A stretch of 32,502 nucleotides of DNA from Candidatus Rokuibacteriota bacterium. GTDB taxonomy: Bacteria; Methylomirabilota; Methylomirabilia; Rokubacteriales; CSP1-6. This document shows positions 243 through 22,999 of the stretch, in pieces (position 1 is the first letter of the stretch; the number at the start of each line of letters is the position of its first letter). The notes under the pieces are model-generated. The model worked only from the letters and a program-made list of their open reading frames with translations. It ran no database searches and was not told the origin of the DNA. The DNA lies in the NCBI GenBank assembly GCA_003220535.1, contig QHSU01000006.1, forward strand, positions 1 through 32,502. Reading direction: 5' to 3'. Made by a program: the position numbers and the translations under genes.

Positions 243-776
243 ATGATGTGTCGGATCACGGTCGTCGGGCTGGCCCTGGCGCTGCTGACTGGCGGTGGCG
301 CCGCGGCCGCCCCCGACTTCGCGAGCCTGCAGGTGCAGCCCTACCAGCCGCCCAAGCCGGCACCGGGCTTCGCCCTGCCGGGGTTGGACGGCAGGGTCAC
401 GCGCCTCGACGACCTCCGGGGCAAGGTGGTTCTCGTCTTCTTCTGGGCCACCTGGTGACCGGACTGCCGGGAGGAGTTACCTTCCGTCAACCAGATATAC
501 GGGGAGTTCAAGGGCAAGGGGTTGGAGATCCTGCTGGTGAATTTCCGCGAGAAGCCCGACCACGTGCGTCAGGTCGTGCGTGACCGCGGCTACGTGGCGC
601 CCGTCCTCCTCGACGAGAGCGGGGACGTGACAGGCAAAGCCTACGGCGTGTGGGGGCCGCCCACCGCCTACTTCATCGACCGCGAGGGGCGATTGATCGG
701 CCGCGTGGCGGGATCGCGCGACTGGTCGGGCCCGGCCGCTCGGGCGTTCATCCAGGCCCTTCTCGACGGTCGCTAG
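243..776 (+). CDS. TlpA/ResA-like thioredoxin-fold selenoprotein (UxxC active site)
   Basis: This is an exported thiol-disulfide oxidoreductase of the TlpA/AhpC-TSA type. It begins with a hydrophobic signal peptide (about residues 1-24, ending in an Ala-rich stretch). The thioredoxin fold shows a PGFALPGLDG strand, the FFWATW motif before the active site and a PPTAYFIDREG cis-Pro segment. The family motif is WATWCPPCREELP. Here the first Cys codon is TGA (456-458, residue 72), followed in frame by PDC and the rest of the fold up to TAG, giving 177 residues. The resolving Cys75 is kept. A bSECIS-like hairpin follows the TGA, so I read it as selenocysteine. The start is the ATG at 243 (or 246), chosen because the signal peptide begins there; no strong ribosome site is visible. 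An upstream in-frame extension to 69 does not look like protein. Expected role: reduction of extracytoplasmic disulfides or peroxides. Confidence 0.85.
456..488 (+). promoter_or_regulatory. bSECIS element of the TlpA-like gene
   Basis: Downstream of TGA 456-458 the strand GGGAGG (469-474) pairs with CCTTCC (480-485) around a five-base loop AGTTA (475-479). A further C-G pair (468/486) and a G-C pair (466/488) extend the stem across one mismatch. The loop begins 16 nt after the UGA and has G at its second position, matching the published bacterial SECIS consensus (loop 16-37 nt away, G in the first two loop bases). Confidence 0.75.
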
Positions 777-904
777 TCGTCAGATCGCAGCGGGCGCCGC
801 AAGACTCGATCGCCGGACTTCGCGCGGATCACGAGCGCTCGATCCTCGGGGATCGGTGATCGGATTCTCCGCAGGGGACTGTGAACCGTGCGGTCGCCGG
901 TCAT

Positions 905-1372
905 TCAGTCGCCGCTCCGTCGGTCGACCAGCCCGCCTGCGTAGCGAGCGGTGTAGACCAGTCCGCCGTTCGCGTGAATGGTCTCTTCACCCCAGAACCT
1001 CACCACATCGCCCTCGTGGACGTTTCGGTAGGAGAACCGGCCCTCGGTCAGGGCGTCGGGACCGCGAACGAGAAACTCGGCCGGCGCCTCGCGCAGGGCT
1101 CGCTGCAAGAACGAATAGACCGACTCGACGTTTGCGCCGTCAACCCCGCCGAAGTAGACGGCCATCCAGACCGGCTGGCCCCGGAAGAACACGACTTCGC
1201 GTCCGCCATACGGCTCCCCACCGAAGTAGTTGTCGTGGAATCTCCACTCGCCGTGCTCAAGGACGATGGTCGTCGAGCGATCGGCTTCGCGAGTTTTGAC
1301 GGCGCCGCAGCCCGCCGCATAGCCGCGGCGACTGGCGTCCTGCAAGAACCCCAGAAGGGCTGTCTGATCCAT
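905..1372 (-). CDS. DUF5680 domain protein
   Basis: The 155-residue cytoplasmic protein has the opening FLQDASRRGYAAG and aromatic-rich blocks (HDNYFGGEPYGGREVVFFRG, WMAVYFGG) typical of the DUF5680 family, whose biochemical role is unknown to me. The start is the ATG at 1372 because a strong GAGAGGAGG ribosome site lies just upstream; the longer reading to 1405 would cover that site. The gene is last in the minus-strand run but has its own promoter, which carries the same sequence as the promoter of the ECF sigma gene at 6524. It is therefore a likely member of that sigma factor's regulon. Confidence 0.75.
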   Translation of the reverse strand: MDQTALLGFLQDASRRGYAAGCGAVKTREADRSTTIVLEHGEWRFHDNYFGGEPYGGREVVFFRGQPVWMAVYFGGVDGANVESVYSFLQRALREAPAEFLVRGPDALTEGRFSYRNVHEGDVVRFWGEETIHANGGLVYTARYAGGLVDRRSGD

Positions 1373-1400
1373 GGCGTGTCCTCCTCTCCCTACCCATTTG

Positions 1401-1426
1401 GACACGCTCCTTGCGGGAGTGTGACA
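1401..1426 (-). promoter_or_regulatory. ECF-type promoter of the DUF5680 gene
   Basis: On the minus strand TGTCACA (1426-1420) is followed after exactly 16 nt by GTCCAA (from 1403). The arrangement and much of the flanking sequence (TGTCACACTCC, CGTGTC, GGGTAGGGAG) recur upstream of the large ECF sigma gene at 6545-6570. TGTCACA is a known -35 type for some ECF groups; assignment to the local sigma factor is inferred. Confidence 0.6.
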
Positions 1427-1465
1427 GCCCGGCGGCTCGAGCTAGCCCGGACTGAACCTCTCGTC

Positions 1466-1897
1466 CTAGCGGGTGCTCTCCCTCGCCGCCTGGTCGTCAG
1501 CGATGGTCTTCAGCGAATCCCGTTCAAGCATGAGCACGTGCTTCGCGATGACGCGGTAGGTCCACTGGCCGGGGGCCGTCTCGCGGTTGAACTGTTCGTC
1601 GGTAAGGCCAAGGAGTGAACCGATGAATCGCGCCCGTTCGGCCAGCCACTCCGCCACCAGGCGGTCCATTGGCGATGGCGTGATCCGAGACTCGTAGCGC
1701 CCTTCGACAACCTGGCCGGTATGGATCTTCTCGTGGTCGATATCATTGGTCAGCAGTGTCCAGACGTTTTTCCCTTGGGCACATGCGTGCGACGACCGCA
1801 TCGGGAGTTCCCGATCCGACGCCTCGAGCAAGGCGCCCATCGTCACCATCGTCTGCTCCAGAAGCTCACGGATGGCCTCGCGAACGGTCTCTGCCAT
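1466..1897 (-). CDS. DinB/YfiT-like putative metalloenzyme
   Basis: The 143-residue protein is a predicted four-helix bundle. It has the DinB layout: a middle helix NDIDHEKIHTGQV with two His, and a C-terminal helix WTYRVIAKHVLMLERD carrying the third His of the metal triad. Members of this superfamily include bacillithiol and other low-molecular-weight thiol transferases as well as uncharacterised stress proteins. It starts 6 bp after the cupin gene stop, so it is probably co-transcribed with the cupin and the selenoprotein genes. Thiol-dependent detoxification is a reasonable inference from family and context, not shown by sequence. Confidence 0.75.
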   Translation of the reverse strand: MAETVREAIRELLEQTMVTMGALLEASDRELPMRSSHACAQGKNVWTLLTNDIDHEKIHTGQVVEGRYESRITPSPMDRLVAEWLAERARFIGSLLGLTDEQFNRETAPGQWTYRVIAKHVLMLERDSLKTIADDQAARESTR

Positions 1898-1903
1898 GGA
1901 TGC

Positions 1904-2335
1904 CTACTCCAGGTACTTCGTATCGTTGAGTGGATCCCAGCCGGGGGTGGCGTTCACGAGGATCACGAAGGCCTCGGCGCCCTTCTGCTCGAAGCTATGC
2001 GGCACGCGCTTCGGGATGCTGATGAGGTCGCCCGGGCCGACCTCTCGCCTCTCGTCCCCCAGACGCGCCGTTGCCTGCCCGCGAACCACGTAGACGACGT
2101 GATCTTCCAGGTCGTGGGTATGCAACCGGATCTTCTTCACCTGCCCGGCCAGGATGCCAACGTTGCTGATCTGGGCTGCCGGCGCGAACTTCACCGGTTT
2201 GTCTCCTAGAAAATCGGGGCCGACGATCTTATCGACATTCGTCACGGTGATTTTGGGTGCGTCGGCGGCGGTGGCACTGCCGACGACGACGAGCGTCCCA
2301 ACGAGCAGGCTCTTCAACGTGAGTCCAGGCTTCAT
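1904..2335 (-). CDS. Exported cupin-domain protein
   Basis: A 143-residue protein with an N-terminal signal peptide (hydrophobic residues about 8-23, cut near SATAADA). The single cupin domain shows motif 1 (HTHDLEDHVVYVVRG, with the H-x-H-x-E metal ligands) and motif 2 (PGDLISIPKRVPHSF, with the final His). It should bind a metal ion in the periplasm; the substrate cannot be read from the sequence. It lies 12 bp downstream of the DsrE selenoprotein gene and 6 bp upstream of the DinB gene, in one transcription unit. Confidence 0.8.
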   Translation of the reverse strand: MKPGLTLKSLLVGTLVVVGSATAADAPKITVTNVDKIVGPDFLGDKPVKFAPAAQISNVGILAGQVKKIRLHTHDLEDHVVYVVRGQATARLGDERREVGPGDLISIPKRVPHSFEQKGAEAFVILVNATPGWDPLNDTKYLE

Positions 2336-2347
2336 GAAAGTCCTCCG

Positions 2348-2713
2348 TTAGAGAGAGACGACTTTGTCGGCCGCGGCCACCTTCTCCGCGAATACCTTTG
2401 GATTGATGAACTGAGCGTTCTTGCTCTTCAGATCGGTCTCGGTGACCCCACGGGCCATTGAGCAGCGCCCTCAGACGTACACCGGCACTTTCTGGGCAAC
2501 GAGCTCGTCGAGCATCTCCTTCAGGGCGGGCATGGCCACCGGCTGCACGGCAGCGATCACGGTGTCCTTCATCAAGTACACCGCCTCTCCCGCCAGGAAG
2601 ATCTCCGGCTGGTGGCCGGCGTCGAGCGCGCCCATGGCGAAGTTGAACGGAAAACCAGCTCGCGTCGGATCGTCGGAGCCAGCGGTTCCGAGGTAGAGGA
2701 TCCTGGCCATCAC
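2348..2713 (-). CDS. DsrE-family selenoprotein (UxxC)
   Basis: The 121-residue reading frame starts MMARILYLGTAG and has the DsrE/DsrF-like fold order: an N-terminal strand, FAMGALDAGHQPEIFLAGEAV, then ALKEMLDELVAQKVPVYV. Family members continue with a Cys (VYVCxxCxxARG). Here that codon is TGA (2473-2471, residue 81), followed in frame by GRC, MARGVTETDL and a normal C-terminus ending at TAA 2348. The motif is thus U81-G-R-C84. DsrE-type proteins carry persulfide on this Cys in sulfur transfer, so Sec would sit at the catalytic position. A good bSECIS-like hairpin follows. Read as a stop, the protein would lose its active site and last third. It lies between the methyltransferase (31 bp) and the cupin gene (12 bp). 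Confidence 0.87.
2438..2473 (-). promoter_or_regulatory. bSECIS element of the DsrE-like gene
   Basis: After the TGA at 2473-2471 the minus strand forms a six-pair upper stem TGGCCC (2457-2452) with GGGTCA (2448-2443), including one G-U pair, closing a GTG loop. A 2x2 internal loop separates it from a lower stem CTC (2462-2460) with GAG (2440-2438). The loop starts 19 nt after the UGA and its first base is G. Confidence 0.72.
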
Positions 2714-2744
2714 GCTCCTCCTTGGGCTTTGTGGGCGCGGATGT

Positions 2745-3548
2745 TCACGCCCGCGGTGTCGAACTTATCGGCCTGCGTCCGGTGACGACGACCGTTTGAA
2801 CGATGTCATGGTCGAGCTCGCTGGGGAGCACACGACGCACGAAATCCAGGAACTCCGGCGGAAACAAGGGGTAGCGGGCCAGGTCCGCAAGGCGGAAGGG
2901 GCGACGATCGACCGTGGCGACCGCCTCGAAGCCGACGTTGAAGAGCTTCTTCCTGAGCACTGGCTCCGCCAGTGCGCCGGCCAGTCAGACCGCGAGCGCG
3001 GTCGGGTCTTTCATGAGCGCCTCGGGTAAGGTGTCGGTGAGCACCAGGTCGCCCAGGGCTACGCGGCCGCCCGGACGCAAGACCCGCAGCATCTCGGCGA
3101 GGGCCCGGCTCTTGCGCGTGGAGAGATTCAGCACGCCGTTCGACACGATCACGTCGAACGACTCGTCCGGAAACGGGAGCGCCTCCATGAGGCCCTCGCG
3201 AAGCTCGATGTTGTCGGCGCCGGCCTCGGCGACATGGCCGCGAGCGCGGTCGAGCATCGCTGGCGTCATATCGAGCCCGACGACGCGCCCGTGCGATCCG
3301 ACGACGCGCGCGGCGAGGAGGGTGTCGATGCCGGCTCCGCAGCCGATGTCGAGGACCCGTTCGCCGCGAACGAGTCCAGCGTGGCGCACCGGATGATTCA
3401 CGCCGAAGGCGAGGGCCACGGCGCCAGGCGGCAGCACCGCCAGCTCCTCGGGCGCGTACAGCATCGCGGCCACGGCCCTGCTCCCTTGCGCTTTTTCATA
3501 GGTGGTGCTGATGATCGTGCGGGCGTCGGCGTCCGAGAAGTAAGGCAC
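2745..3548 (-). CDS. ArsM-like SAM-dependent methyltransferase, selenoprotein
   Basis: A 267-residue class I methyltransferase. Seen: the lead-in YAPEELAVLPPGAVALAFG, SAM motif I VLDIGCGAGIDTLLAA (about residues 68-83), VVGLDMTPAMLDRAR, and LPFPDESFDVIVSNGVLNL with LRVLRPGGRVALGDLV. This order is that of arsenite methyltransferase ArsM and its relatives. ArsM has a functional Cys in the segment WAGCVAGAL. Here TGA (2987-2985, residue 188) occupies it, followed in frame by LAGALAEP, LFNVGFEAV and a normal C-terminus. A seven-pair bSECIS hairpin follows. The other ArsM metal-binding Cys are absent (FGVNHPV instead of a Cys-bearing FGCGNPV), so the acceptor may not be arsenite. The start ATG is 3 bp after the anti-sigma gene, so translation is probably coupled. 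The real stop is the TGA at 2745. Confidence 0.87.
2957..2987 (-). promoter_or_regulatory. bSECIS element of the methyltransferase gene
   Basis: The minus strand after TGA 2987-2985 holds a perfect seven-pair hairpin: GCACTGG (2975-2969), loop CGGAG (2968-2964), CCAGTGC (2963-2957). The loop begins 16 nt after the UGA and has G at positions 2 and 3. This is one of the two cleanest SECIS candidates in the window. Confidence 0.82.
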
Positions 3549-3551
3549 CGA

Positions 3552-3797
3552 TCACTCCGTGGACGTCTGGCCTAGCGTCCGGCGGATCCGCGCTTCTAGA
3601 CCGTCCGGGACCGGCGACTGCGGCAGCCGGTTCTTCACGAAGGTGTCCAGTCGCCGGCTGAAGGCCAGCTTTTCGCAGCACGATAGGCAGGCTTCCAGAT
3701 GGGCCTCGAGGTCGTTCAGAGGCTCACCCGCGAGGGCACGGTCCAGGTAGGCGAAGAACTGCTCGACGGCCTGCTCACAGCTCAGAGGCTTCGTCAT
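3552..3797 (-). CDS. Zinc-finger anti-sigma factor (zf-HC2/ZAS)
   Basis: An 81-residue soluble protein with the anti-sigma zinc-finger motif HLEACLSCC (H-x3-C-x2-C), preceded by an upstream Cys (LSCEQAV). No membrane segment is present. It overlaps the ECF sigma gene by 4 bp (ATGA), the usual sigma/anti-sigma arrangement, and is followed after 3 bp by the Sec-methyltransferase gene. ZAS-type anti-sigma factors often release their sigma factor when the zinc-thiolate cluster is oxidised or takes up another metal. A thiol or metalloid signal would fit the downstream genes. Confidence 0.85.
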   Translation of the reverse strand: MTKPLSCEQAVEQFFAYLDRALAGEPLNDLEAHLEACLSCCEKLAFSRRLDTFVKNRLPQSPVPDGLEARIRRTLGQTSTE

Positions 3798-4426
3798 CGG
3801 TCTTCACTCCGCACGAGCCGGCGGCGCCGCGCGCACTCCCACAGCTCACGTTCGAGAATTTTCCGTGCGCGATGGAGCCGCGACATCACGGTGCCGACAG
3901 GACAGTTCAGCGTTTCGGCCAGCTCTCGATAGCTCAGATCCTCGACGTAGAGGAGTATCAGCGGGACTCGGTAGACGTCAGGCAGATTCAGAAGAGCGGC
4001 CCGGACGTCATCGTCCGGGAACTGGTCGAGGAAGTCCTGGTGGAGAGTGTCGGAATACGGAAACGGGTCTTCGTCCCAGATGAGGTCGTACAGGGAGAAC
4101 CGGTCGAGGTCCTGGAGGTCGCCGACCGCAATCTCGGGTGGCTGCTGCCGATGGCGATCGATGGCCAGCCGGGCAAGGATGCGCGAGAGCCAGCCGCGGA
4201 TGCTGGCCTGCTCCCGGAGGCTGGGAAACGCCGCGAGCCCTTTCACATAGGTTTCGTGCACGAGGTCCTCGGCGTCCCGTCCGTGCCCGGCCAGCCGGGC
4301 AGCGAGCCTGTAGAGATGAGCGAGGTGCGGCAGCGCCAAGGCCTCGAACGTCTGGCGCAGTTCGTCCGGCTTCGTGGCCTGCTGGGGCTGGGTTGAAGCG
4401 TCGGGGATCGTCATCGGGTCGGTCAC
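3794..4426 (-). CDS. ECF-family RNA polymerase sigma factor
   Basis: 210 residues. The sigma-70 region 2 is at about residues 30-95 (HLYRLAARLAGHGRDAEDLVHETYVKGL, then GWLSRILARLAIDRHR) and region 4 at about 145-200 (ALLNLPDVYRVPLILLYVEDLSYRELAETLNCPVGTVMSRLHRAR). It is translationally coupled to its zinc-finger anti-sigma factor and starts 6 bp after the MFS stop. It probably directs transcription of this operon or of an oxidative/thiol-stress regulon. It is distinct from the longer ECF factor at 5637-6524, so two sigma factors are encoded in the same run. Confidence 0.9.
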   Translation of the reverse strand: MTDPMTIPDASTQPQQATKPDELRQTFEALALPHLAHLYRLAARLAGHGRDAEDLVHETYVKGLAAFPSLREQASIRGWLSRILARLAIDRHRQQPPEIAVGDLQDLDRFSLYDLIWDEDPFPYSDTLHQDFLDQFPDDDVRAALLNLPDVYRVPLILLYVEDLSYRELAETLNCPVGTVMSRLHRARKILERELWECARRRRLVRSEDR

Positions 4427-4432
4427 ATCCCT

Positions 4433-5612
4433 CTAATACCTGAGACGGATTCGGCTGGCCCGAAAATTCCCGGCTTGCACCCAGAGAAGGGCGCCGGCGA
4501 GCGCGCCGATGACGCCCGCGGCCCCCCCCCGCTGCGAAGCCTACGGTGTACCCGTGCCGCGTGATGACGGGACCCAGCCCGAACGACCCTAACGCGAGCC
4601 CCAGATACAGGCAGGTACTGTAGCCGCCCATGACGATCCCTCGGGCGGCTGGCGTGGTAGACGCCGCCAGGGCCACGCTGATGGCGACGAAGGCGATGCC
4701 ACTGACCGAACCGAAAATGGCGACCACTGCGAGCAGAATCGGTTGGCCGTCGACGTGAGGCAGCATGGCGGTGGCCACCGATGCTACCAGCACGCCACCA
4801 ATCGCGTACGGAGCGCACCACCCTGTGCGATCCACCAGCCATCCCGCTGGGAAACGCGCCAGCGTGTTCGCGAGCCCCAGGACGAGGAAGAGGAGACCGA
4901 TAGCGGCTGGCGTGAAGCCCCGCTCGTGAGCAAGCAAGGGGAAGAACGTGAAGACCACGCCCTGAATGAGAAAGCCGCTGACTGAGAGGGTCCATCCCGC
5001 CCAGACGCTGGCATTGCCTCTGACGTCTGCGAACGTGCCGCCGGGCACAGGGCTCTTGTGCGGAGCGGCTCGCACGGGCAGGGCCAACCCCCCCAGCAGG
5101 GCGACGGCAATGCCGACCGCGCTCCCAACGAAGGCCGAACGATAGCCCCACCGGTTCGCCACGAGGCCGCCGACGAACGGTCCGATTGCGATCGCGCCGT
5201 AGTGCGCCGTCGAATACCACGCGAAGGCCTGACCCGCCCGACCCGGGGCGGCCGCGTCACCGACCAGGGAGAGTGCGCTGGGCGTGAACGCCGCCACGCC
5301 GAAGCCTGCGAGCCCGTAGATCGCCATGAGCGCAAGCTGGCCTTCGACGAGCGGCAAGAGTAACGACGTCACGACGCCTAGGGCCATCCCGCCAAGCAGG
5401 AGCGGGCGGCGGCCCCAGACGTCCGAGACCCGACCGAGTGGAATCGAGCCAACGGCCGCCGCACCCATGTGGACCCCGATGATGAGCCCGACGCCCGTCG
5501 CCGTGGCGCCGTGGGCGGCGGCGTAGAGCGGAAGGACCGGCGCAGCACGCATCTGGGCGCCAACGTAGTGAAGAAAGGTGAGCGCGGAAACGAGGACAAG
5601 GACCGGGATCAC
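4433..5612 (-). CDS. MFS transporter, frameshifted in a G9 run
   Basis: A 12-helix major facilitator carrier with motif A SDVWGRRPLLLGG, a conserved helix 5 (SAFVGSAVGIAVALLGG) and a second-half loop ending in GWLVDRTG. The substrate is unknown. Translation is normal from the GTG at 5612 to GYTVGFAAG. There a run of nine G (minus strand, 4530-4522) shifts the frame into the neighbouring sigma gene. With one G fewer the frame reads AGVIGALAGALLWVQAG, a plausible last helix, and stops at TAG 4433, just before the sigma gene. I take the shift as a sequencing error or slippage and give the corrected extent (392 residues). Confidence 0.75.
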
Positions 5613-5636
5613 GAGGGCGTCGCGCCTTGAACCGCG

Positions 5637-6524
5637 TTAGGGAAGATCGGTGGCCTGCTTGAAATCGTCGCTGCCAACCAACAGTCTCAACGCCTGCACC
5701 AGGTCCAGCGAGTCGTAGAACGGATGCCGCCGGTAGATCTCCCCATACTGCTCGTCGAGCGTCGCGATCGCTTCGTACGTCGTCGGCACGACATCGCGCA
5801 CCCGCCGGATATGTTCCCGCGCGAACAAGAGATTCTTTGGATCGACGTAGCCCGCCTGCATAAAGCCGCGGGTCTTCTTCGCACATCGGCATTGGTTCGC
5901 GCGATTGACGAGTCCGCACTTGTCGTTCATGAAGTTGTGAAGGTCGCGTCGCGCACGGGCTAGACGCTGGCGAAAGTTTTCGCGGCTGATCTCGAGTAGC
6001 TCGGCGGCGACCGTGTCGCTCACCTCGAAGATCTCCCCGAGGATGTAGATCAAGCGCTGGCCGCGATCGAGACAGAGCAGCATTCCGGCCGTGCAGGCGA
6101 TCCGGGCTTCGTCGACCAGCAGGCGGACATCGGTGGCGACGCTCGTCGAATCTGGCGGATCGAGATCGGGTGTGTTGTCGAGTCCGTGACCATAGCAGCT
6201 GAAGGTCATGGCCTCCGGTTCCAGGCGGCCCCGCTTGGTGTTGAGCACGTGGTTGACGACGATGCGGTAGAGCCACGTCCGGAAGCTGCTGCGCCCCTCG
6301 AACGACGACAGCCGAGTGAGCGCCTTGATGAGGACCTCTTGCGTTGCGTCCTCGGCGTCCTGGGGATGGTAGAGCATGCGGACGGCGATGTTGTAGATCC
6401 ACGCCTGATGGCGCTGGATCAGCGCTTCGAGCGCATCGCGGTGGCCCGACTGAGCGCGCGCCACGAGCGCGTGATCCTCGGGGTCAGTAGATGCGCTGTC
6501 GGTTAGCGGATTGCTACTGCTCAT
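5637..6524 (-). CDS. ECF-type sigma factor with Cys-containing C-terminal extension
   Basis: 295 residues. Region 2 is at about residues 20-85 (ALIQRHQAWIYNIAVRMLYHPQDAEDATQEVLIKAL, then TWLYRIVVNHVL). Region 4 is at about 140-185 (GQRLIYILGEIFEVSDTVAAELLEISRENFRQRLARAR). It then continues for about 110 residues with a conserved-looking segment NDKCGLVNRANQCRCAKK and a helical end. That tail is longer than in a normal ECF factor and could sense redox or metal through its four Cys. The start is the ATG at 6524, with GGGGTAGGGAG as ribosome site; the longer reading to 6638 runs through the promoter. The promoter sequence recurs at 1401-1426, suggesting autoregulation. Confidence 0.85.
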   Translation of the reverse strand: MSSSNPLTDSASTDPEDHALVARAQSGHRDALEALIQRHQAWIYNIAVRMLYHPQDAEDATQEVLIKALTRLSSFEGRSSFRTWLYRIVVNHVLNTKRGRLEPEAMTFSCYGHGLDNTPDLDPPDSTSVATDVRLLVDEARIACTAGMLLCLDRGQRLIYILGEIFEVSDTVAAELLEISRENFRQRLARARRDLHNFMNDKCGLVNRANQCRCAKKTRGFMQAGYVDPKNLLFAREHIRRVRDVVPTTYEAIATLDEQYGEIYRRHPFYDSLDLVQALRLLVGSDDFKQATDLP

Positions 6525-6544
6525 GTTGATCTCCCTACCCCTTA

Positions 6545-6570
6545 GACACGGCCGGTCGTGGAGTGTGACA
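6545..6570 (-). promoter_or_regulatory. ECF-type autoregulatory promoter of the large sigma gene
   Basis: On the minus strand TGTCACA (6570-6564) is followed after 16 nt by GTCTAA (from 6547), then GGGGTAGGGAG and the ATG at 6524. The same elements with the same spacing precede the DUF5680 gene. Two independent copies inside 5 kb make this a credible sigma-factor recognition site. Confidence 0.6.
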
Positions 6571-6634
6571 GAAGAGGAGGGCCGGGGAGGTCGTACGCGG
6601 TTCGCGCCTAGGCTGGGCCCCCGCCGGGAGGGTG

Positions 6635-8377
6635 TCATCGCTTACCAGGCGCAAAGAACGGGTTGGACCCCGCAGCATGGTCAGTCGTGTCGACAACCCC
6701 GATGATCTCCGGGAGACGCGACCGAAGCAGACGCTCAACACCCTGCCGGATCGTCACCTCCGCAAGGCTGCATCCCTGACAGCCTCCTTCGAGACGGATA
6801 CGCACGCGGCCTTCGGCGACATCAACCAGGGTCACTCGTCCGCGGTGGGCCGCGACGGCGGGATTCACCTCGGAGTCGAGAATCCGGCGTACGCGCTCGG
6901 TCAGATCAGCGGGACTGCCCGGCGTCGGAGTGGGCCCAGGCCACACGACTCGCACTTCGGCTACTCCGGGCACCTCCGCACGCAGAAGCGCCTCGATATG
7001 TGAGGCCGCGGGCAGGACGGCGCCTGGCGATCCGCTCGCTTCGAGGGTAATCACACCTCCCTCAACGGCGACGACGCGTACCGAGCCTCCTCGAGCGATG
7101 ATGGACGGCATCACGCTACGGTCCATCACCGCCACGATTGCCGCGGCCAGGTCTGAACCTGCCAACGACGTCGGCAAAGGTTCAGGCACCGGCCCGCCGG
7201 TGGCACCGGCCTTCGAGACCTTCTCGAGCGCTGCATCGAGGTCCGCGATCAAGTCCTCGGGCGCCTCGAGCCCGATCGACAAGCGCAACAGATCATCCGG
7301 CACTGGTGACGACGGCCCTTCCGTACTGCGGCGGTGTTCGATGAGACTCTCGACGCCGCCGAGTGACACAGCCCTTTTGAACACGCGTACCGCACCGGCC
7401 ACGCTCATGGCGTTGGCCTCGCCGCCAGCGACCCGGAGCGACAGCATCCCGCTGAACCCGCCGGTCATCTGGCGCGCCGCAACCTCGTGGCCGGGATGAG
7501 ACGGCAGCCCAGGGTAGAGCACCGCGCTCAGCGCTTGATGCCCATCGAAGTGACGAGCGATGGCGAGAGCGCTCTGGGACGAACGCTGCACCCGAACGAA
7601 CAGCGTCCGCATCCCGCGTTGCAGCAGCCAGGCCTCGAACGGGCCGAGCACGGCGCCGGCGCTCCGGCGCCACGAGCGGATCCGCTCCCAGAAGGGATCA
7701 GCGCGCGCCGTGACCACCGCACCCGCGAGGACGTCACTGTGGCCATTCAGATATTTCGTGGCCGAGTGGACCACAAGATCAGCGCCGAACTCGATGGGTC
7801 GTGTCAAGACGGGGGTCGCCGCAGTGCTGTCGACGGCCACGCGCACATCCACGGCATGGGCAATCTCCGCCACGGCCGCGAGGTCCGTGACGTCCCACAT
7901 TGGGTTGGCGGGTGTCTCGACCCACAGGAGGCGCGTCCGGCCGGGGCGAATAGCAGCAGTCACCTGGGCCAGGTTCGTGGTGTCGACGAACTCGACGTCG
8001 AGCCCCCACGAGACTGCGAACTCCGCGAGCCACCGGCGAATGCCCCAGTAGAGAATCCTCGAGACGAGGACATGATCCCCGGGAAGGAGAGACTGAAAGA
8101 CTGCTGTTGCCGCCGCGCTGCCTGAGGCGAAGAGCATGCACGCGACGCCACCCTCCAGAGCGGCGAGCAGCCGTTCGGCGTGGTCGTAGGTGGGATTGTC
8201 GGCGCGCGTGTAGGCCAGGCCGGACCTGTAGCTACCGTCGGGGCTACGCTCGTATATCGTCGATGGGTGGATAGCGGGTGAGAGAGCGCCCGACGCTTGA
8301 TCGATCTCACCGAGGGCTTGAGCCGCGAGCGTTTCGCGCGAGCGTCCGCCAAGAATGGATTGCCCGCGATTCATCAA
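6635..8377 (-). CDS. Cys/Met-metabolism PLP enzyme fused to two NifU-like domains
   Basis: 580 residues. Residues 1 to about 385 are a trans-sulfuration PLP enzyme (cystathionine gamma-synthase/lyase or methionine gamma-lyase family). It shows YTRADNPTYDHAERLLAALEGG, an SGSAAATAVFQSL phosphate loop, VETPANPMWDVTDL, the Schiff-base Lys208 in HSATKYLNGHSD, and SLGGVESLIEHR. After a Pro-rich linker come two NifU C-terminal-like domains: about 400-470, with the CxxC lost (SGSPGAV), and about 478-566, with C533-Q-G-C536. NifU domains hold Fe-S clusters. The fusion joins release of sulfur (or selenium) from an amino acid to a cluster scaffold. It overlaps the upstream CCPF gene by 4 bp. The usual enzyme ends near residue 390, so the fusion is unusual. 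Confidence 0.88.
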   Translation of the reverse strand: MMNRGQSILGGRSRETLAAQALGEIDQASGALSPAIHPSTIYERSPDGSYRSGLAYTRADNPTYDHAERLLAALEGGVACMLFASGSAAATAVFQSLLPGDHVLVSRILYWGIRRWLAEFAVSWGLDVEFVDTTNLAQVTAAIRPGRTRLLWVETPANPMWDVTDLAAVAEIAHAVDVRVAVDSTAATPVLTRPIEFGADLVVHSATKYLNGHSDVLAGAVVTARADPFWERIRSWRRSAGAVLGPFEAWLLQRGMRTLFVRVQRSSQSALAIARHFDGHQALSAVLYPGLPSHPGHEVAARQMTGGFSGMLSLRVAGGEANAMSVAGAVRVFKRAVSLGGVESLIEHRRSTEGPSSPVPDDLLRLSIGLEAPEDLIADLDAALEKVSKAGATGGPVPEPLPTSLAGSDLAAAIVAVMDRSVMPSIIARGGSVRVVAVEGGVITLEASGSPGAVLPAASHIEALLRAEVPGVAEVRVVWPGPTPTPGSPADLTERVRRILDSEVNPAVAAHRGRVTLVDVAEGRVRIRLEGGCQGCSLAEVTIRQGVERLLRSRLPEIIGVVDTTDHAAGSNPFFAPGKR

Positions 8378-8715
8378 GCGCCATCTTGGGAAGCGGAAGC
8401 TGCGAGACCAGCCGCGCCGAGGAACTCCTTGACGCCAAGACCACCGCCAAACTGGAGCCAGACAGGACCGGCGGAAGGTTCAAAGCGTAACTCGAGGCGT
8501 AAGAATGGACAGCAACGGCGCTCAAGCAGGAGCCAATCGAGAGCGTCCTGAACGAGTTGAGGCTCCGCGTCGAGGCGCACTGCATATCCATCAGGGGTCT
8601 CGCGAACCTCTCGAAACCGACCGGACACTCCAGTCGCGACGATCGATCGCCGCGAGCGCTCCTCTTCGCTCAGCGCACCAAGATCACAGGCGAGGACCGG
8701 TTGGCTGTCGTTCAT
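8374..8715 (-). CDS. Conserved hypothetical protein with CCPF motif
   Basis: 113 residues from the ATG at 8715, preceded by GAGGG; a longer reading to 8772 has no ribosome site. Seen: ACDLGALSEEERSRR near the start, DWLLLERRCCPFLRLELRFEP in the middle and VKEFLGAAGL near the end. I know similar proteins with ERxCCPF as uncharacterised neighbours of mercury and other metal genes, so thiol-based metal handling is possible but unproven. It is translationally coupled (ATGA) to the PLP-NifU gene. Confidence 0.7.
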   Translation of the reverse strand: MNDSQPVLACDLGALSEEERSRRSIVATGVSGRFREVRETPDGYAVRLDAEPQLVQDALDWLLLERRCCPFLRLELRFEPSAGPVWLQFGGGLGVKEFLGAAGLAASASQDGA

Positions 8716-8840
8716 TACGCCCTCTACTTTCGAGCCCGAGTTTGGTTGCGGCCTCAACGAGAATTTGGCCACGATTGCTGGCGGCGGCAGCGCGCCACGA
8801 CGTCGCTTTGATTCGTTTCCCTCTCAGCACTCTCGAAACC

Positions 8841-10088
8841 TCAATGGCGAGCCAGGGCTGGGTGAGGCCTAGTCTGGCCCATCAACCGCGCGACGACGAG
8901 ACCAGAGACGAGGGTGAGCACCGCGACGAGGTGGATCGCCGCCGCGATACCGACGAGGTCCGCGACCGCGCCGGAGAGCAGTGCTCCAATGGCGTATCCG
9001 AGATCGCGCCAGAATCGGTAGACGCCGAGGCTGGTCGCGCGCCACGCGGGGTGCGCGTGGTCCGTGATCGCAGCGAGGAGCGTCGGATAGACCATCGCCG
9101 TCCCGAGTCCCTGCAACGCGGCGCCGACCAGCCACGCGACATAGGTCGGCACCAGGACCGTCAACCATATCCCACCGGACTGCACGATCATGCCCCACGC
9201 GATCAGCTCTTTCCGGCCGACGCGGTCGGACAGCGGCCCGGTCGCGACCTGCAGAACGCCCCACACCATGGGATAGACCGCCTTGATAGTGCCGATACTG
9301 CCGACGCCGAGGCCGTATGCGGCGAAGAAGAGCGGATAGAGTCCCCATGACATACCGTCGTTCAGGTTGTTCACGAGCCCGGCCTGGCAGGCCGCGAAGA
9401 GGCTGACGTTACCGAGACTTGTGACATAAAAGACGTTCTGCAGCGATGGACGGACGTCGCTGGAAGTCTGAGGGGACGTGGCCGCTTCGAGGTGCGCGTA
9501 GGGTCGAGTCTCTCTGACAAGGAGAGCGGAAACCGTGAGGCCAACGACGGCGATGACGATCCCGAGGTAGAAGGGCTGCGGGCGCAACGCGCTGTGAGCG
9601 GCGATGTAGCCGGTGACCCACGACATTACCCCTACCGCGAAGTACCCGGCGAACTCATTCAGTCCCAGGGCGAGGCCACGCCGCTTCGGTCCGACGAGGT
9701 CGATCTTCATGATGACCGTCATCGACCACGCCATCGCCTGGTTGGCGCCGAGCAGGACGTTGGCGAGGTCGATCCACCACCATGCCGGCGCGTAGATGAT
9801 CAGGAACGGCACCGGCAGGGCGAAAAGCCAGCCGACCACCAGGATCGGCTTCCGTCCGATGCGGTCAGACGCACGAGCGGCAATCAGATTGATGATCGCC
9901 TTCGTCACACCGAAGCTCACGATGAACGACGTGATGGCGGTCTTCGAGCTGAGCCCGAACTCCTGCTCGCCCAGCAGCGGCAGCACGGTCCGCTCCAGGC
10001 CGACCATGGCGCCGACGAAGGAATTCAGGACGACGAGCAGCGCGAACTGCGGGAGGTTCTCCCGCAGTCCGAGCCGCATCTCGCTCAT
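8841..10088 (-). CDS. MFS transporter
   Basis: 415 residues with 12 predicted membrane helices. Motif A is ASDRIGRKPILVVGW, repeated in the second half as GPLSDRVGRKELIAWG. The cytoplasmic middle loop is about residues 200-220. The substrate cannot be told from the sequence. The start overlaps the end of the MBL selenoprotein gene by 4 bp (ATGA), so the two are co-translated. The carrier may import or export the thiol/persulfide compound handled by the MBL enzyme (inference). Confidence 0.87.
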   Translation of the reverse strand: MSEMRLGLRENLPQFALLVVLNSFVGAMVGLERTVLPLLGEQEFGLSSKTAITSFIVSFGVTKAIINLIAARASDRIGRKPILVVGWLFALPVPFLIIYAPAWWWIDLANVLLGANQAMAWSMTVIMKIDLVGPKRRGLALGLNEFAGYFAVGVMSWVTGYIAAHSALRPQPFYLGIVIAVVGLTVSALLVRETRPYAHLEAATSPQTSSDVRPSLQNVFYVTSLGNVSLFAACQAGLVNNLNDGMSWGLYPLFFAAYGLGVGSIGTIKAVYPMVWGVLQVATGPLSDRVGRKELIAWGMIVQSGGIWLTVLVPTYVAWLVGAALQGLGTAMVYPTLLAAITDHAHPAWRATSLGVYRFWRDLGYAIGALLSGAVADLVGIAAAIHLVAVLTLVSGLVVARLMGQTRPHPALARH

Positions 10089-10822
10089 TCGCCCGTGAGG
10101 TTGCGCCGGCGATTCACGGCGAAAGCTTCGGGCTGTGGCGGAAGATCTTTCAATACGTAGTCCACGAACTCCGCTCTCGAGGCGGCTCGGAGCGCCGGAT
10201 TGAAACGGCGCTCGAAGCCGATGGTGGAACCGGGCTTACCGCTCAGACCTTTACCGCACGCCGCGCCCCCGAAATGCGCGGGAAAGATTTCGAGGTGATC
10301 GGGCAGCGTCATAATCTTGCTGTGCAGGCTGTCGTGGAGCTGTTCTGCGAGCATCGCTTCCGAGCCAGCGCCAATGAGGTCTGGGCGACCGACCCCACCC
10401 GAGAACAGCGTGTCGCCGGTCAGAACAAACCAGGGCTCCGCGGCCCGCGTCTTGTCCGTGACCAGGATCGAGACGCTGTCCGGTGTGTGTCCCGGCGTGT
10501 GGAGGATCGAGAGCACCACATTGCCAAGATCGTGTCGCTCTCCATCCTCGACGTTGAGGTGTGGGAACTCGACTGGTGCTGACTTGTGGAAGATCACCGG
10601 AGCACCGGTTGCATCTGAGAGACGACGAGCGCCAGACAGGTGATCGGCCTGAACGTGGGTCTCGTAGATGTGCGTGATCCGCATGGATTTCTGAGCGGCC
10701 GCTTCGAGATAAGGCTCGATCTCAAGCTGTGGATCCACCACAGCGCAGCAGGCTGCGCCCGCTCAGCCAAACAGGTAGCTGGCGCAGCCGGTCTTCGGCG
10801 ACAGGAAGTGGCGGAAAATCAT
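10085..10822 (-). CDS. MBL-fold persulfide-dioxygenase-like selenoprotein
   Basis: 245 residues. The frame opens MIFRHFLSPKTGCASYLFG, then TGA (10765-10763, residue 20), then AGAACCAVVDPQLEIEPYL. Relatives read SYLFGC at this place, so TGA replaces a Cys. The metallo-beta-lactamase core follows: ETHVQADHLSG (H-x-Q-x-D-H; the second His of the usual HxHxDH is Gln), LHTPGHTPDSVSIL, LTGDTLFSGGVGRPDL and FPAHFGG. This set is typical of the ETHE1/rhodanese-linked branch that oxidises glutathione persulfide. The start ATG at 10822 has a strong AGGAGG site 6 nt upstream. Without Sec the call would begin at GTG 10741 and lose the first strand. A seven-pair bSECIS hairpin follows the TGA. It is coupled to the MFS gene and divergent from a LysR gene. 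Confidence 0.87.
10726..10765 (-). promoter_or_regulatory. bSECIS element of the MBL-fold gene
   Basis: After TGA 10765-10763 the minus strand has a perfect seven-pair hairpin: GCTGTGG (10744-10738), loop TGGAT (10737-10733), CCACAGC (10732-10726). The loop begins 25 nt after the UGA and has G at position 2. A second hairpin (GCGCAG/CTGCGC, loop CCTG) lies between it and the UGA, but that one is too close to fit the consensus. Confidence 0.8.
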
Positions 10823-10918: not shown

Positions 10919-11896
10919 ATGACGCTGCGGCAGCTCGAGGTCTTTCTCGCCGTCGCCAGGGAAAAGAGCTTCAGCCTGGCGGCGAAGAAAATCCATTCGT
11001 CGCAGCCAACGCTGTCTGAACACGTCAGCGAGCTCGAAACCGAACTGGGAAAGCAGCTGTTCTTCCGTCGGGGACGCCGCCGGGTTGTCACCGTGACCGA
11101 GGCAGGCCGTGTCGTCGCGGAGTTTGCGGAGCGTGCCATCTCCGCGATTGAGGGCGGGCGTCAGGCGCTCGCTGAGCTGGATGGCCTGGCTCATGGGTCG
11201 CTCTTGATCGGCGCCAGCACGACTCCGGGGCTCTACGTGCTGCCCAGAATCGTTGCGGCGTTTCGGACCAAATACCCTGGCGTAAATGTGAAGCTCCAGA
11301 TCGCCAATTCTCAGGCCATCGAGGGACGAGTCAGGGAACGCGAGCTCGATCTTGGGATCGTCGGCGGGCATGCTCTTAGGCCGGGCGAGGAATGTTTGAC
11401 GGCCGGAATGCGCGATGAACTTGTCCTCATTGTCGCGCCCGAGCACGCATGGGCTCGACGTCGGGACATCACCCCTGACTCGCTTGCCGATCAGCCGCTG
11501 CTTGTGCGGGAGGAAGGATCTGCGACCCGCAGCGTCACGGAACGCGCGCTTCAGCGGGCGAGGGTCAAGTTCAGCGTGGCGATGGAGCTGGACCATACCG
11601 AGGCGATCAAGCAAGGCGTGATGGCTGGGCTCGGCGTTGCGTTTGTTTCACTCTATTCGGTGCGCGGGGAAATGGCCACGGGACGACTCCGCGCTCTGCG
11701 GCTGCGAGGCGTTCGCATCCAGCGGCACTTCCACATCATTCACCATGAGGCCCGGAGGGTCACCGCGAGTGCACGCGCCTTCATGGAGTTCTTCGACCAG
11801 ACGGGGCGTGGGCGGAGGGATACATGGCTACTCGAGAAGAAGACATCATCCGCCGGTACTTCGGGGCCTTCAACAAGCACGACCTCGAAGGAGTAA
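10919..11896 (+). CDS. LysR-family transcriptional regulator
   Basis: 325 residues. The winged HTH is at residues 1-60 (LRQLEVFLAVAREKSFSLAAKKIHSSQPTLSEHVSELE), followed by the linker helix and a periplasmic-binding-like effector domain (GSLLIGASTTPGLYVLPRIVAAF, then LDLGIVGG). It diverges from the MBL selenoprotein gene and probably controls it. The last 30 or so residues (from GRGRRDTW) are encoded by DNA that is also the ribosome site and start of the next gene, and by an exact 127-bp repeat. They look unlike a LysR end, so the native C-terminus may have been replaced or extended. Confidence 0.9.
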   Translation: MTLRQLEVFLAVAREKSFSLAAKKIHSSQPTLSEHVSELETELGKQLFFRRGRRRVVTVTEAGRVVAEFAERAISAIEGGRQALAELDGLAHGSLLIGASTTPGLYVLPRIVAAFRTKYPGVNVKLQIANSQAIEGRVRERELDLGIVGGHALRPGEECLTAGMRDELVLIVAPEHAWARRRDITPDSLADQPLLVREEGSATRSVTERALQRARVKFSVAMELDHTEAIKQGVMAGLGVAFVSLYSVRGEMATGRLRALRLRGVRIQRHFHIIHHEARRVTASARAFMEFFDQTGRGRRDTWLLEKKTSSAGTSGPSTSTTSKE

Positions 11897-11928
11897 TCGC
11901 CTGCTTTCATCCCGAGCCCGTGGTCGTC
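11802..11928 (+). repeat. 127-bp exact direct repeat, copy 1
   Basis: Identical to 13258-13384. It covers the ribosome site, start codon and first 35 codons of the SnoaL-like gene. This copy reads on naturally into the rest of that gene, so it is probably the parent copy. Confidence 0.9.
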
Positions 11929-12935: not shown

Positions 12936-13060
12936 ACGGCTCTGATTCTTTCCAGGCCTGCTCAGGCCGGCCCGCCCGCCCTTCGTAACACTTGTGACAG
13001 ACAGCGCTCGTCGGTCTCCTCAGACTGTCTACAGACGTGACTAATCTGAGGAGGGTTGAC

Positions 13061-13510
13061 ATGAGAACTCGATGGGGCAGAAGCGAAATGGTGGCGGGAA
13101 TCATCGTGGTGAGCTTGGTCGGCGCGACAGTCGTGCAGGCTGAGCAGCAAGGACCCGCGCGAGCCGACACCGGCACGGACAAGGTGATACGGCTAACGCC
13201 AGACGAGCTTACCTGGACAGCCGGCCCGCCGATGTTGCCGCCTGGCGCCAGCATGGCCGGGGCGTGGGCGGAGGGATACATGGCTACTCGAGAAGAAGAC
13301 ATCATCCGCCGGTACTTCGGGGCCTTCAACAAGCACGACCTCGAAGGAGTAATCGCCTGCTTTCATCCCGAGCCCGTGGTCGTCTTCGAGATGCCGGCAA
13401 CGATTCATCATTTCGGCTGGACTACCGAGGAAACGATCATCCAGGAGCACGGCATCGGTCCTCTGAGCGTGAACTACCTGAAGCCGGCGCACGACGCGCC
13501 GCATCGGTAG
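13061..13510 (+). CDS. Chimeric exported cupin gene with SnoaL insertion
   Basis: The start at 13061 has a strong GAGGAGGG site and a signal peptide (GIIVVSLVGATVVQAEQ). The mature start VIRLTPDELTWTAGPPMLPPGASMA and the end MPATIHHFGWTTEETIIQEHGIGP are the two ends of a known exported cupin type with a HHFGW motif. Between them the expected core (GDPxKPGPF with the HWHP metal site) is missing. In its place stands the 127-bp copy of the neighbouring SnoaL gene start, still in frame, giving 149 residues. The product cannot fold as a normal cupin. It is either an assembly chimera or a real recombination product. Confidence 0.75.
   Translation: MRTRWGRSEMVAGIIVVSLVGATVVQAEQQGPARADTGTDKVIRLTPDELTWTAGPPMLPPGASMAGAWAEGYMATREEDIIRRYFGAFNKHDLEGVIACFHPEPVVVFEMPATIHHFGWTTEETIIQEHGIGPLSVNYLKPAHDAPHR
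13258..13384 (+). repeat. 127-bp exact direct repeat, copy 2
   Basis: Identical to 11802-11928, lying 1,456 bp downstream in the same orientation inside the cupin gene. Both edges are sharp: upstream A versus C before the shared C, downstream G versus T. Confidence 0.9.
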
Positions 13511-21970: not shown

Positions 21971-22999
21971 CTACGCGGCCTGCCTTTGGTAGCGATGGTG
22001 CAGGCCGCCGACTTCTGGAAGCTGCACGATCCTCCCAGCCGAGGCGAGTTCGACGGGCCTGGCTTCTGGTGCGTCCTTGGCGAGTGAGAGGTGTGTGCGA
22101 GCCCGATGGTAGTACGCGAAGTAACGGACCAGGACGCGGCGTAGGTGCCGTTCACCAGGGACCAGAACATGATTCAGGCACTCGCGTCGGATCGAGCCAA
22201 TGAGCCGCTCCGCGAAGGGATTCTGCCAGGGGCTGTGCCTTGCGATGACGACCTCCTCAATATTCATGCCCTTCATGCGGCGCCGAAAGTGCTCTCCGTA
22301 GATCTGGTCGCGGTCGCGCAGGAGATAGCACGGTGCGGAGTCGTCCTGAAAGGCGTCGATGATCTGCTGAGCGGTCCAGTGGGCGGTGGGGTGCTCGGTC
22401 ACGTTGAAGTGGACGACGCGTCGGCGATGGTGAGCGAGCACGACAAGAACGAAGAGCACGCGCAGGCCTGCAGTGGGGACGGTGAAGAAGTCGAGAGCGA
22501 CGAGGTCCCGCACATGGTTGTCAAGGAACGTGCGCCACGCCTGCGACGGCGGTGAGCGCCGCCTCGGCATGAGCCGAGAGACGGTGCGCTCAGCGACGTT
22601 GAAGCCGAGCTTCATGAGCTCCCCATGGATTCGTGGGGCGCCCCAGAGGGGGTTGGCACTGGCCATTCGGGTGATCAAGGCCTTGAGCTCGGTATCGACG
22701 GTCGGGCGACCTCCGGTGGGCCGAGCCGAGAGCTTGGTCCAGTACTCGCGGAAGCGACGACGCTGCCAACGCAAGACGGTGTCGGGCGACACGATGATGA
22801 GGGCTTGTCTCCAACCGGCCCAGACTCTGGCCAGGCCGACCCACAACAGGCGATCAGTCGTGCACAGCTTCGGCCGGGGCACCGTTCGCTTGTACGCGGC
22901 AAGCTGCTGACGGAGGGCGAGGTTCTCGAGGGCGAGCTGACGATGGCCGCCGAAGAGGAAAGGGAGGATCCGAAGCAGGTCGAGCAGGAGGGTAATCAT
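21971..22999 (-). mobile_element. Integrase-core (DDE) transposase of an insertion sequence
   Basis: 342 residues. An N-terminal helix-turn-helix region (ENLALRQQLAAYKRTVPRPK, then WVGLARVWAGWRQALIIVSPDTVLRWQR) is followed by a RNase H-like core. The first Asp is in LVALDFFTVPT, the second in CYLLRDRDQIYG, and the Glu is in PFAERLIGSIRRECL. This single-frame type is related to the IS3/IS481 integrase-core group. The gene is intact. I could not find convincing terminal inverted repeats by eye. Its insertion probably destroyed the integrase gene next to it. Confidence 0.87.

Follow-up and report, generated by a model that had tools for sequence, protein, structure and literature searches.

The DNA considered here (below, the window) is a stretch of 32,502 nucleotides from a Candidatus Rokuibacteriota bacterium (contig QHSU01000006.1 of GCA_003220535.1), and forms one contig (C130) of an assembly of 162 contigs and 7.18 Mb, with a completeness of 93.8% and a contamination of 8.2%. 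Four genes in the window each contain one in-frame TGA, and each is predicted to encode a selenoprotein, i.e., a protein in which the UGA codon is read as selenocysteine (Sec, U). They encode a TlpA-like thiol:disulfide oxidoreductase, a DsrE-like protein, an ArsM-like S-adenosylmethionine (SAM) methyltransferase, and a protein of the metallo-beta-lactamase (MBL) fold, which is likely to be a persulfide dioxygenase (PDO). An earlier interpretation made from the letters of the window (the sequence-only reading) had described them as one selenium-dependent locus, with a selenocysteine insertion sequence (SECIS) hairpin after each TGA. The genes, their UGA codons and hairpins, and the neighbouring genes are:

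246..776, + strand: TlpA/ResA-like thiol:disulfide oxidoreductase, predicted selenoprotein, Sec71 in WATWUPDC (UxxC); ResA subfamily, E 3.6e-28, below its cut-off
456..500, + strand: TlpA Sec UGA (456-458) and SECIS-like hairpin, loop 16 nt after the UGA
2348..2710, - strand: DsrE-like protein (PF02635), predicted selenoprotein, Sec80 (UxxC; motif UGRC)
2430..2473, - strand: DsrE Sec UGA (2473-2471) and SECIS-like hairpin, loop 19 nt after the UGA
2745..3548, - strand: ArsM-like SAM methyltransferase, predicted selenoprotein, Sec188 (UxxG; motif ULAG); NF008823, 208.4 bits, cut-off 263
2940..2987, - strand: ArsM Sec UGA (2987-2985) and hairpin, loop 17 nt after the UGA, -16.0 kcal/mol
3552..3797, - strand: zinc-finger (zf-HC2) anti-sigma factor (PF13490)
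3794..4426, - strand: extracytoplasmic function (ECF) sigma factor 1 (TIGR02937, over cut-off)
5637..6638, - strand: ECF sigma factor 2 (TIGR02937, over cut-off)
6635..8377, - strand: Cys/Met-metabolism pyridoxal phosphate (PLP) enzyme fused to a NifU domain (PF01053 and PF01106)
8841..10088, - strand: major facilitator superfamily (MFS) transporter downstream of Sec-PDO, its ATG overlapping the TGA stop of the PDO gene
10085..10822, - strand: likely CstB-type PDO domain, MBL fold, predicted selenoprotein, Sec20 (CASYLFGU)
10715..10765, - strand: PDO Sec UGA (10765-10763) and predicted SECIS hairpin GCUGUGG-UGGAU-CCACAGC, loop 25 nt after the UGA
10919..11896, + strand: LysR regulator, divergent from Sec-PDO (NF040786, 237.9 bits, cut-off 250)

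The four TGAs lie where the sequence-only reading had placed them, on the forward strand for TlpA and on the reverse strand for the other three. When TGA is read as U, the remainder of each protein continues in the same frame into its family (NCBIfam and Pfam): the products match ResA/TlpA, DsrE (PF02635), arsenite methyltransferase, and metallo-beta-lactamase/glyoxalase II, mostly with scores below the curated NCBIfam cut-offs. The DsrE-like protein has both marks of a DsrE-like selenoprotein, PF02635 and UxxC. The methyltransferase has UxxG and, as its score is under the NF008823 cut-off, is best called ArsM-like. The neighbours (the PLP-NifU fusion, the two ECF sigma factors and the zinc-finger anti-sigma factor) are as that reading described them. 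A non-exhaustive scan of the window by relatives revealed no convincing case of a further recoded UGA, the output being swamped by antisense and wrong frames.

The in-frame TGAs are conserved among relatives, as surveyed in 95 genomes of the phylum (the window's own copy being counted). For the MBL gene, exactly one TGA is present in 31 full-length places in 29 genomes, at identities down to 58%, and also in four fragments; all full-length places without TGA are at most 55% identical. For TlpA, one TGA is present in all 48 best-scoring places (58-99% identity, 42 genomes), one of which also has a TAG, and below these 48 places the TGA-bearing and TGA-less ones are intermixed. All 51 DsrE places listed for the phylum have one or two TGAs. 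For ArsM there is one TGA in seven places at 47-99% identity, and among the remoter places eight have TGA, one has TAA, and the rest have none. That the codon is TGA rather than TGC or TGT is supported by its conservation in independent genomes.

At the column of the query Sec, the fetched loci (the best-scoring ones only, several of which overlap the same gene) have U in 35 of 35 cases for TlpA, 58 of 58 for DsrE and 63 of 63 for the MBL; for ArsM, U and C are found 24 times each, two of the U rows being poorly aligned. The proposal that homologues would have Cys at the four TGA positions was borne out: Cys is found in 12 of 12 TlpA relatives without UGA, in the natural Cys homologues of DsrE (P0123, P0124, P0136), and in all 11 MBL paralogues of at least 47% identity, with Ser, Asp or Ala in the remoter paralogues. 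A scan of GTDB (one genome per species, 84,980 species) yielded 252 stretches encoding PDO relatives, of which the best 80 have U at the Sec column in 26 cases and C in 53, the remaining one not covering it. Outside the Rokubacteria/Methylomirabilota, Sec-PDO occurs among these 80 in two Eremiobacterota, in UBP12 and in a Bacillota genome; one 'Acidobacteria' record with U (L232, 74%) is probably a misbinned Rokubacteria.

In all 12 pairwise comparisons, the nonsynonymous substitution rate (dN) is lower than the synonymous rate (dS) both before and after the UGA; e.g., for the MBL against locus L147, dN is 0.068 and dS is 0.855 over the 225 codons following the UGA. Each of the four genes has an in-frame UGA at a conserved Cys column, followed by conserved coding sequence. 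Because the UGAs are kept at Cys columns across many genomes, their presence is beyond chance. Judged by these sequence comparisons, the four UGAs are real and very probably decoded as Sec.

Decoding of UGA as Sec requires dedicated machinery, for which the sequence-only reading had suggested a search in the same genome. A single tRNA-Sec (69.8 bits, over the Rfam cut-off) is present on contig C107, with the genes for SelA and SelB beside it, and SelD is encoded on contig C1, its match itself including one in-frame TGA. Thus, SelA, SelB, SelD and tRNA-Sec are all present in the genome that encodes the four proteins. Within the window, no tRNA genes were found and nothing matched Rfam at the gathering threshold. 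SelB is present in 84 of the 95 genomes of the phylum and is therefore useless as a discriminator inside it; outside the phylum, SelB scored over its cut-off in 4 of 5 Sec-PDO genomes vs 9 of 17 Cys-PDO genomes. The same assembly has further UGA-containing copies of PDO (95%; G000:C36:5314-6051) and of TlpA (94% and 67%; C142:7898-8419 and C84:113088-113591).

The hairpins had been put forward as evidence for each of the four genes, with apical loops 16, 19, 16 and 25 nt downstream of the TGA and G in the first two loop bases. The distances hold for TlpA, DsrE and the MBL, whereas that for ArsM is 17 nt; the G is within the first two loop bases in each. All four hairpins satisfy the constraints for bacterial SECIS elements, which were taken from PMC13188914. 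However, so do 83% of 300 codon positions drawn at random from nine window genes, and the single-sequence hairpin was rejected as evidence.

The hairpins were also compared among relatives. For the MBL, 28 of the 31 phylum loci were used (L162, L183 and L184 were dropped by a motif and spacing filter), and the hairpin codons are GCT in 27 of 28, GTG GTG in 28 of 28, CCA in 28 of 28 and, in all 26 that have Gln, CAG. Codon identity averages 0.97 within the hairpin windows vs 0.57 over all 72 conserved degenerate columns; for four-fold codons it is 0.98 (4 hairpin columns) vs 0.47 (33 columns, the highest at 0.86), and the hairpin value was equalled by none of 20,000 random draws. One locus (L181) has a compensatory change in this hairpin, from T-A to C-G. 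In the TlpA hairpin, CGG and CCT are found in 31 of 31 sequences, the stem pairs are kept in 87-100% of these, and codon identity is 0.89 (8 hairpin columns) vs 0.56 elsewhere (57 columns). For DsrE, codon identity is 0.74 in the hairpin vs 0.49, and across 32 sequences 0.87 of the cells of the stem are paired, with 27 two-sided changes in register, whereas a stem slid by 1-3 has 0.34-0.58 of cells paired and 2-20 two-sided changes. For ArsM there are only seven sequences, in which stem pairs are kept in 71-100%, with one two-sided change. By comparison of sequences, the hairpins are significant for the MBL, TlpA and DsrE, i.e., a conserved SECIS is predicted for these three. RNAalifold gave a weak consensus when three sequences from other phyla were included, the best fold of which lies elsewhere.

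The MBL protein had been called ETHE1-like. This label was too loose, as the protein is closest to the CstB (type III) branch. Residues are numbered here as in the gene (Sec20, His56, His112, Asp137, Cys189) or as in the alignments, where each is one higher (e.g. His57, His113, Asp138, Cys190). The nearest sequences in the PDB are 3tp9 (E 7.6e-49) and 3r2u (E 4.7e-43), over the whole dioxygenase domain, and in both a Cys aligns with the Sec and another with Cys190 (alignment numbering). An AlphaFold model of Sec-PDO (pLDDT 84.4) was compared with known structures by Foldseek, and the best matches were again 3tp9 (TM 0.91) and 3r2u (up to 0.90), followed by ETHE1 and other persulfide dioxygenases; among solved structures, the CstB type is the closest in both sequence and fold. 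His57, His113 and Asp138 are invariant in 21 sequences and Cys190 is kept in at least 90%. CstB has two important cysteines, Cys20 and Cys201. From motif context, we take the former three residues (His57, His113, Asp138) to be the equivalents of the iron ligands of PaPDO. The iron site of PaPDO is described in PMC12856154 as 2-His-1-Asp, and a putative triad of this kind is invariant in the 21 sequences.

The Staphylococcus aureus enzyme (CstB, 3r2u), a persulfide dioxygenase-sulfurtransferase, is assigned to the type III persulfide dioxygenases (PMC6060420). Sec-PDO shares with it, and with the Alicyclobacillus protein 3tp9, the dioxygenase domain and both Cys columns, but differs in having UGA at the first Cys column, in ending after the dioxygenase domain without the C-terminal rhodanese domain of full CstB, and in being partnered by an MFS gene and a LysR gene. 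As the rhodanese domain is missing, Sec-PDO is not a CstB but only a CstB dioxygenase domain. Thus, from its sequence and its predicted fold, the MBL is likely to be a CstB-type (type III) persulfide dioxygenase domain with Sec at the column of CstB Cys20. A Cys paralogue in the same genome has a longer open frame (478 aa), and a Bacillota homologue (L292, 3001-3720) has in-frame UGAs at both conserved Cys columns.

The arrangement of these genes in relatives does not bear out a single selenium-dependent locus. Neighbours were counted by matching to window proteins, and the counts refer to genes that the window has. An MFS gene is adjacent to Sec-MBL in 28 of 31 loci, and a divergent upstream LysR gene is present in 23, two of the eight misses (L158, L187) being at a contig edge. 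ECF1 and the anti-sigma factor accompany Sec-ArsM in five of six close loci. The PLP-NifU fusion adjoins the MFS gene in six of the 31 Sec-MBL loci (a mere fragment in two of them), and ECF2 is present in four, in two of which MFS1 is beside it. Relatives of ECF2 lie near Sec-PDO in L145, L148 and L150, and near Sec-TlpA in L176. At four other TlpA loci, ECF2 and MFS1 follow Sec-TlpA in one (G050), one has weak MerR matches only, and two have no window gene. A UGA-bearing ArsM match adjoins Sec-PDO in G011 and in the UBP12 locus L257. Since the pieces mostly travel separately in relatives, the 'island' can be seen as several modules meeting in this genus. Judging by conserved gene order, it mostly appears to consist of separate units, i.e., LysR divergent from Sec-PDO-MFS, and ECF-anti-sigma-Sec-ArsM, together with DsrE and TlpA.

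Plasmids of proteobacteria have similar gene sets, in operons of the layout ArsR-(DsrE)-PDO-MFS-(methyltransferase), where genes in brackets occur in some of them. In seven plasmid regions, which were taken from annotated top hits (H1, H2, H3 and H10 of 774 for PDO; H14, H16 and H22 of 130 for MFS), an ArsR/SmtB gene, an MBL gene and an MFS gene are present in 7/7, DsrE in 3/7, a SAM methyltransferase in 2/7, and merA in 3/7. Pairs of Cys-type PDO and MFS also occur in Chloroflexi, Mesorhizobium and others. The operons on plasmids of Azotobacter salinestris (NZ_CP045301) and Methylocystis rosea (NZ_CP034087) resemble the window in having adjacent PDO and MFS genes, DsrE and a SAM methyltransferase, but differ in that the plasmid PDO has no UGA and the regulator is ArsR/SmtB instead of LysR. 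In the Azotobacter plasmid, the MFS protein is 58% and the PDO 48% identical to those of the window, with Cys at the Sec column, and the ArsR protein scores for the sulfite-sensing BigR and has a rhodanese-like stretch, both below the model cut-offs. In the sulfide clusters described in PMC9918477 and PMC5823870, PDO is accompanied by a TauE-type sulfite transporter and by either DsrE or a sulfur transferase domain. As the plasmid operons and the published clusters combine like genes, persulfide oxidation with export of the product is favoured. By analogy, a common sulfur-stress role of the window genes is a reasonable inference, and the plasmid operons lend support to a reactive-sulfur or metalloid role.

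The best explanation of the locus, to which we assign a probability of about 0.7, is that the four genes are UGA-Sec genes, that one of them encodes a CstB-type Sec-PDO, and that the window brings together selenium-armed modules, for the most part separate, against reactive-sulfur and metalloid stress. It builds on the presence of the UGAs and their retention at Cys columns, on the Sec machinery of the genome, on conservation at the RNA level downstream of the UGA in three of the four genes, and on the module of LysR with PDO-MFS. Of the sequence-only reading, Sec decoding is thereby strongly supported, but the single locus and the lone hairpins as evidence are not. Under this explanation, SelB and tRNA-Sec would insert Sec at each of the four UGAs. 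In PDO, sulfane sulfur would be picked up from a persulfide donor, which in the window may be Sec-DsrE, by the selenolate of Sec20, with the conserved Cys189 perhaps taking part. The selenolate would offer this sulfur to a mononuclear iron (His56, His112, Asp137), where it would be oxidized to sulfite. The MFS protein would then export the sulfite, and LysR would control the PDO-MFS pair. The ECF/anti-sigma pair would govern Sec-ArsM, whose substrate for methylation would be arsenite or a related metalloid. The role of Sec-TlpA would be the reduction, outside the membrane, of disulfides or persulfides. The chances are slightly better than even for the more specific proposal of a Sec-dependent PDO in the MBL superfamily (in Methylomirabilota/Rokubacteria, Eremiobacterota, UBP12 and, with both UGAs, Bacillota), in which selenium would be the acceptor of sulfane sulfur beside a non-haem iron, and which would act in joint defence with Sec-DsrE, Sec-ArsM and Sec-TlpA.

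Several observations weigh against this explanation. Any lone hairpin is uninformative, given the pass rate of random positions. The DsrE stem slid by +1 still yields 20 two-sided changes vs 27 in register, so that part of its covariation signal is due to shared ancestry. The mean folding energy in comparison with codon permutation is equivocal, as z is -4.44 one codon after the UGA and -4.39 at codon +68; the Cys comparison set in this test shrank to five sequences through the motif and spacing filter. A 72-residue PDO fragment (L320; G090:C69) is 64% identical and has Cys at the Sec column. One of the five Sec-PDO genomes outside the named Rokubacteria/Methylomirabilota showed no SelB. The bin may be a mixture of two strains, given the contamination of 8% and the near-copies (94-95%) of TlpA and PDO. 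The best of 43 families for the LysR protein is NF040786, 'selenium metabolism-associated LysR', below its cut-off, and the link to selenium is that of the model name alone. The plasmid DsrE and methyltransferase are remote (33% over 40 aa and 31% over 103 aa). On the fetched stretch around Sec-MBL, DsrE is present in 5 of 31 loci and a UGA-bearing ArsM match in 3 of 31. With regard to the PDO fragment, it diverges after about 72 residues, and the same genome also has a full-length UGA copy.

The low counts of DsrE and ArsM around Sec-MBL, together with the separate conservation of the modules, are what would be expected if the selenoprotein genes were genuine but their co-location coincidental, i.e., if unrelated modules lay side by side in a selenoprotein-rich lineage and did not act together. 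UGA-containing TlpA is indeed common (its 48 best places are in 42 of 95 genomes), and SelB is present in most genomes of the phylum. However, DsrE, PDO and MFS occur together on three of the seven plasmid regions, two of them with a SAM methyltransferase; UGA-bearing ArsM matches adjoin Sec-PDO in the two loci mentioned above; and ECF2 lies close to PDO at three further loci and close to TlpA at another one. Mere co-location is the main rival with regard to the island and, while we hold it to be somewhat short of even odds, it is a substantial possibility. The main rival with regard to function is that the Sec-PDO/MFS pair handles a metal or metalloid such as mercury or arsenic, not persulfides, with Sec as a soft-metal ligand. 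The ArsR-type regulators by the plasmid homologues in all seven regions, merA near three of them, and the same two loci with an ArsM match next to Sec-PDO are consistent with such a role, whereas the residues that would serve as iron ligands in a persulfide dioxygenase do not vary and the Azotobacter ArsR protein has the sub-threshold BigR and rhodanese-like matches. This alternative is considered unlikely.

Two further explanations would deny that Sec is inserted at all. If the UGAs were stops, the products would be truncated proteins, pseudogenes or assembly errors, and such truncated products are what callers of open reading frames (ORFs) yield; but the same UGA recurs across many independent genomes, purifying selection continues after it, Cys is its exchange partner, and synonymous sites are nearly frozen in the MBL hairpin, which makes this highly improbable. 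Reassignment of UGA to a standard residue (Trp or Gly) in the lineage is more improbable still. Two public DsrE proteins (P0121, P0122) read W at the UGA, which looks like the product of a table-4 pipeline, but it is Cys, and neither Trp nor Gly, that takes the place of the UGA in relatives, and the genome has the full Sec machinery. In addition, as the sequence-only reading had argued, ordinary TGA stops end the MBL gene (10087-10085, overlapping the MFS ATG) and the ArsM gene (2747-2745), so that the genetic code has not been changed as a whole.

The prediction that automated annotation would truncate these genes has proved correct for MBL and DsrE, the public predictions of which are mostly shortened. 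The best 120 of 7,793 MBL homologues are 208-218 aa long and cover 84-89% of the query, and the four sequences inspected all begin after the Sec. Of the best 120 DsrE homologues (409 in total), 115 cover only 64-66%, and the three short ones inspected end at the UGA. The five longer homologues comprise three natural Cys forms and the two with Trp at the UGA, as if genetic code 4 had been used.

Some of the four families are known as selenoproteins. A catalogue of 119 families from May 2026 (PMC13188914) lists DsrE (UxxC), ArsM (UxxG) and TlpA-type (UxxC) selenoproteins. The window DsrE (PF02635, UGRC) is like the catalogued DsrE selenoprotein, which has one Sec; some DsrE relatives found here differ from it in having two UGAs, i.e., UGGU or UTGU (L069, L071, L076, L081, L195). 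The window ArsM shares its motif and top family with the arsenite methyltransferase selenoprotein (NF008823, UxxG), which the same catalogue lists as experimentally verified, but is below the cut-off and has a single UGA and no AhpD or DUF2284 fusion. The TlpA motif WATWUPDC is like those of thiol-disulfide isomerase-like/TlpA selenoproteins (UxxC), from which no notable difference was found. The Sao and Tso operons in that source also have several selenoprotein genes together, but the families displayed for the window proteins (for ArsM, the 25 best of 60) include no Sao or Tso model. A selenoprotein of the MBL or persulfide dioxygenase kind is absent from the catalogue and was not found in the open-access literature searched, and none of the 12 NCBIfam families matching the window MBL is a selenoprotein model. 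According to PMC13188914, a Methylomirabilota genome has 63 predicted selenoproteins (Deng 2026), and these may include the window genes. With regard to relatives of ArsM, two UGA-bearing matches share one contig in both G003:C241 and G077:C143, and in G016:C109 such a match is beside a two-UGA DsrE.

Several features of the window lie outside these genes. Positions 1-58, at the start of the contig, are an exact head-to-tail repeat of a 29-base unit, perhaps an assembly or library artefact. The 127 bases at 11802-11928 recur exactly, in direct orientation, at 13258-13384; the repeat takes in the start of a SnoaL-like ORF (11824) as well as a portion of a second ORF (13037-13510). An ORF at 21971-22999 resembles an integrase-type transposase by eye, and the contig may include a mobile element.

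The finding that 83% of random positions in this GC-rich DNA pass the hairpin rules calls for caution when selenoproteins are predicted from one sequence alone. If the explanation preferred here is true, an unlisted selenoprotein family, the persulfide dioxygenase, would be added to those known. As the best 120 public matches are short, Sec-PDO is likely to be missed when sulfide detoxification or selenium use is surveyed in the phylum. Furthermore, the UGA and Cys versions of PDO would constitute a built-in comparison: because both adjoin the same transporter gene, what is gained by having selenium next to the iron of a dioxygenase would be directly measurable.

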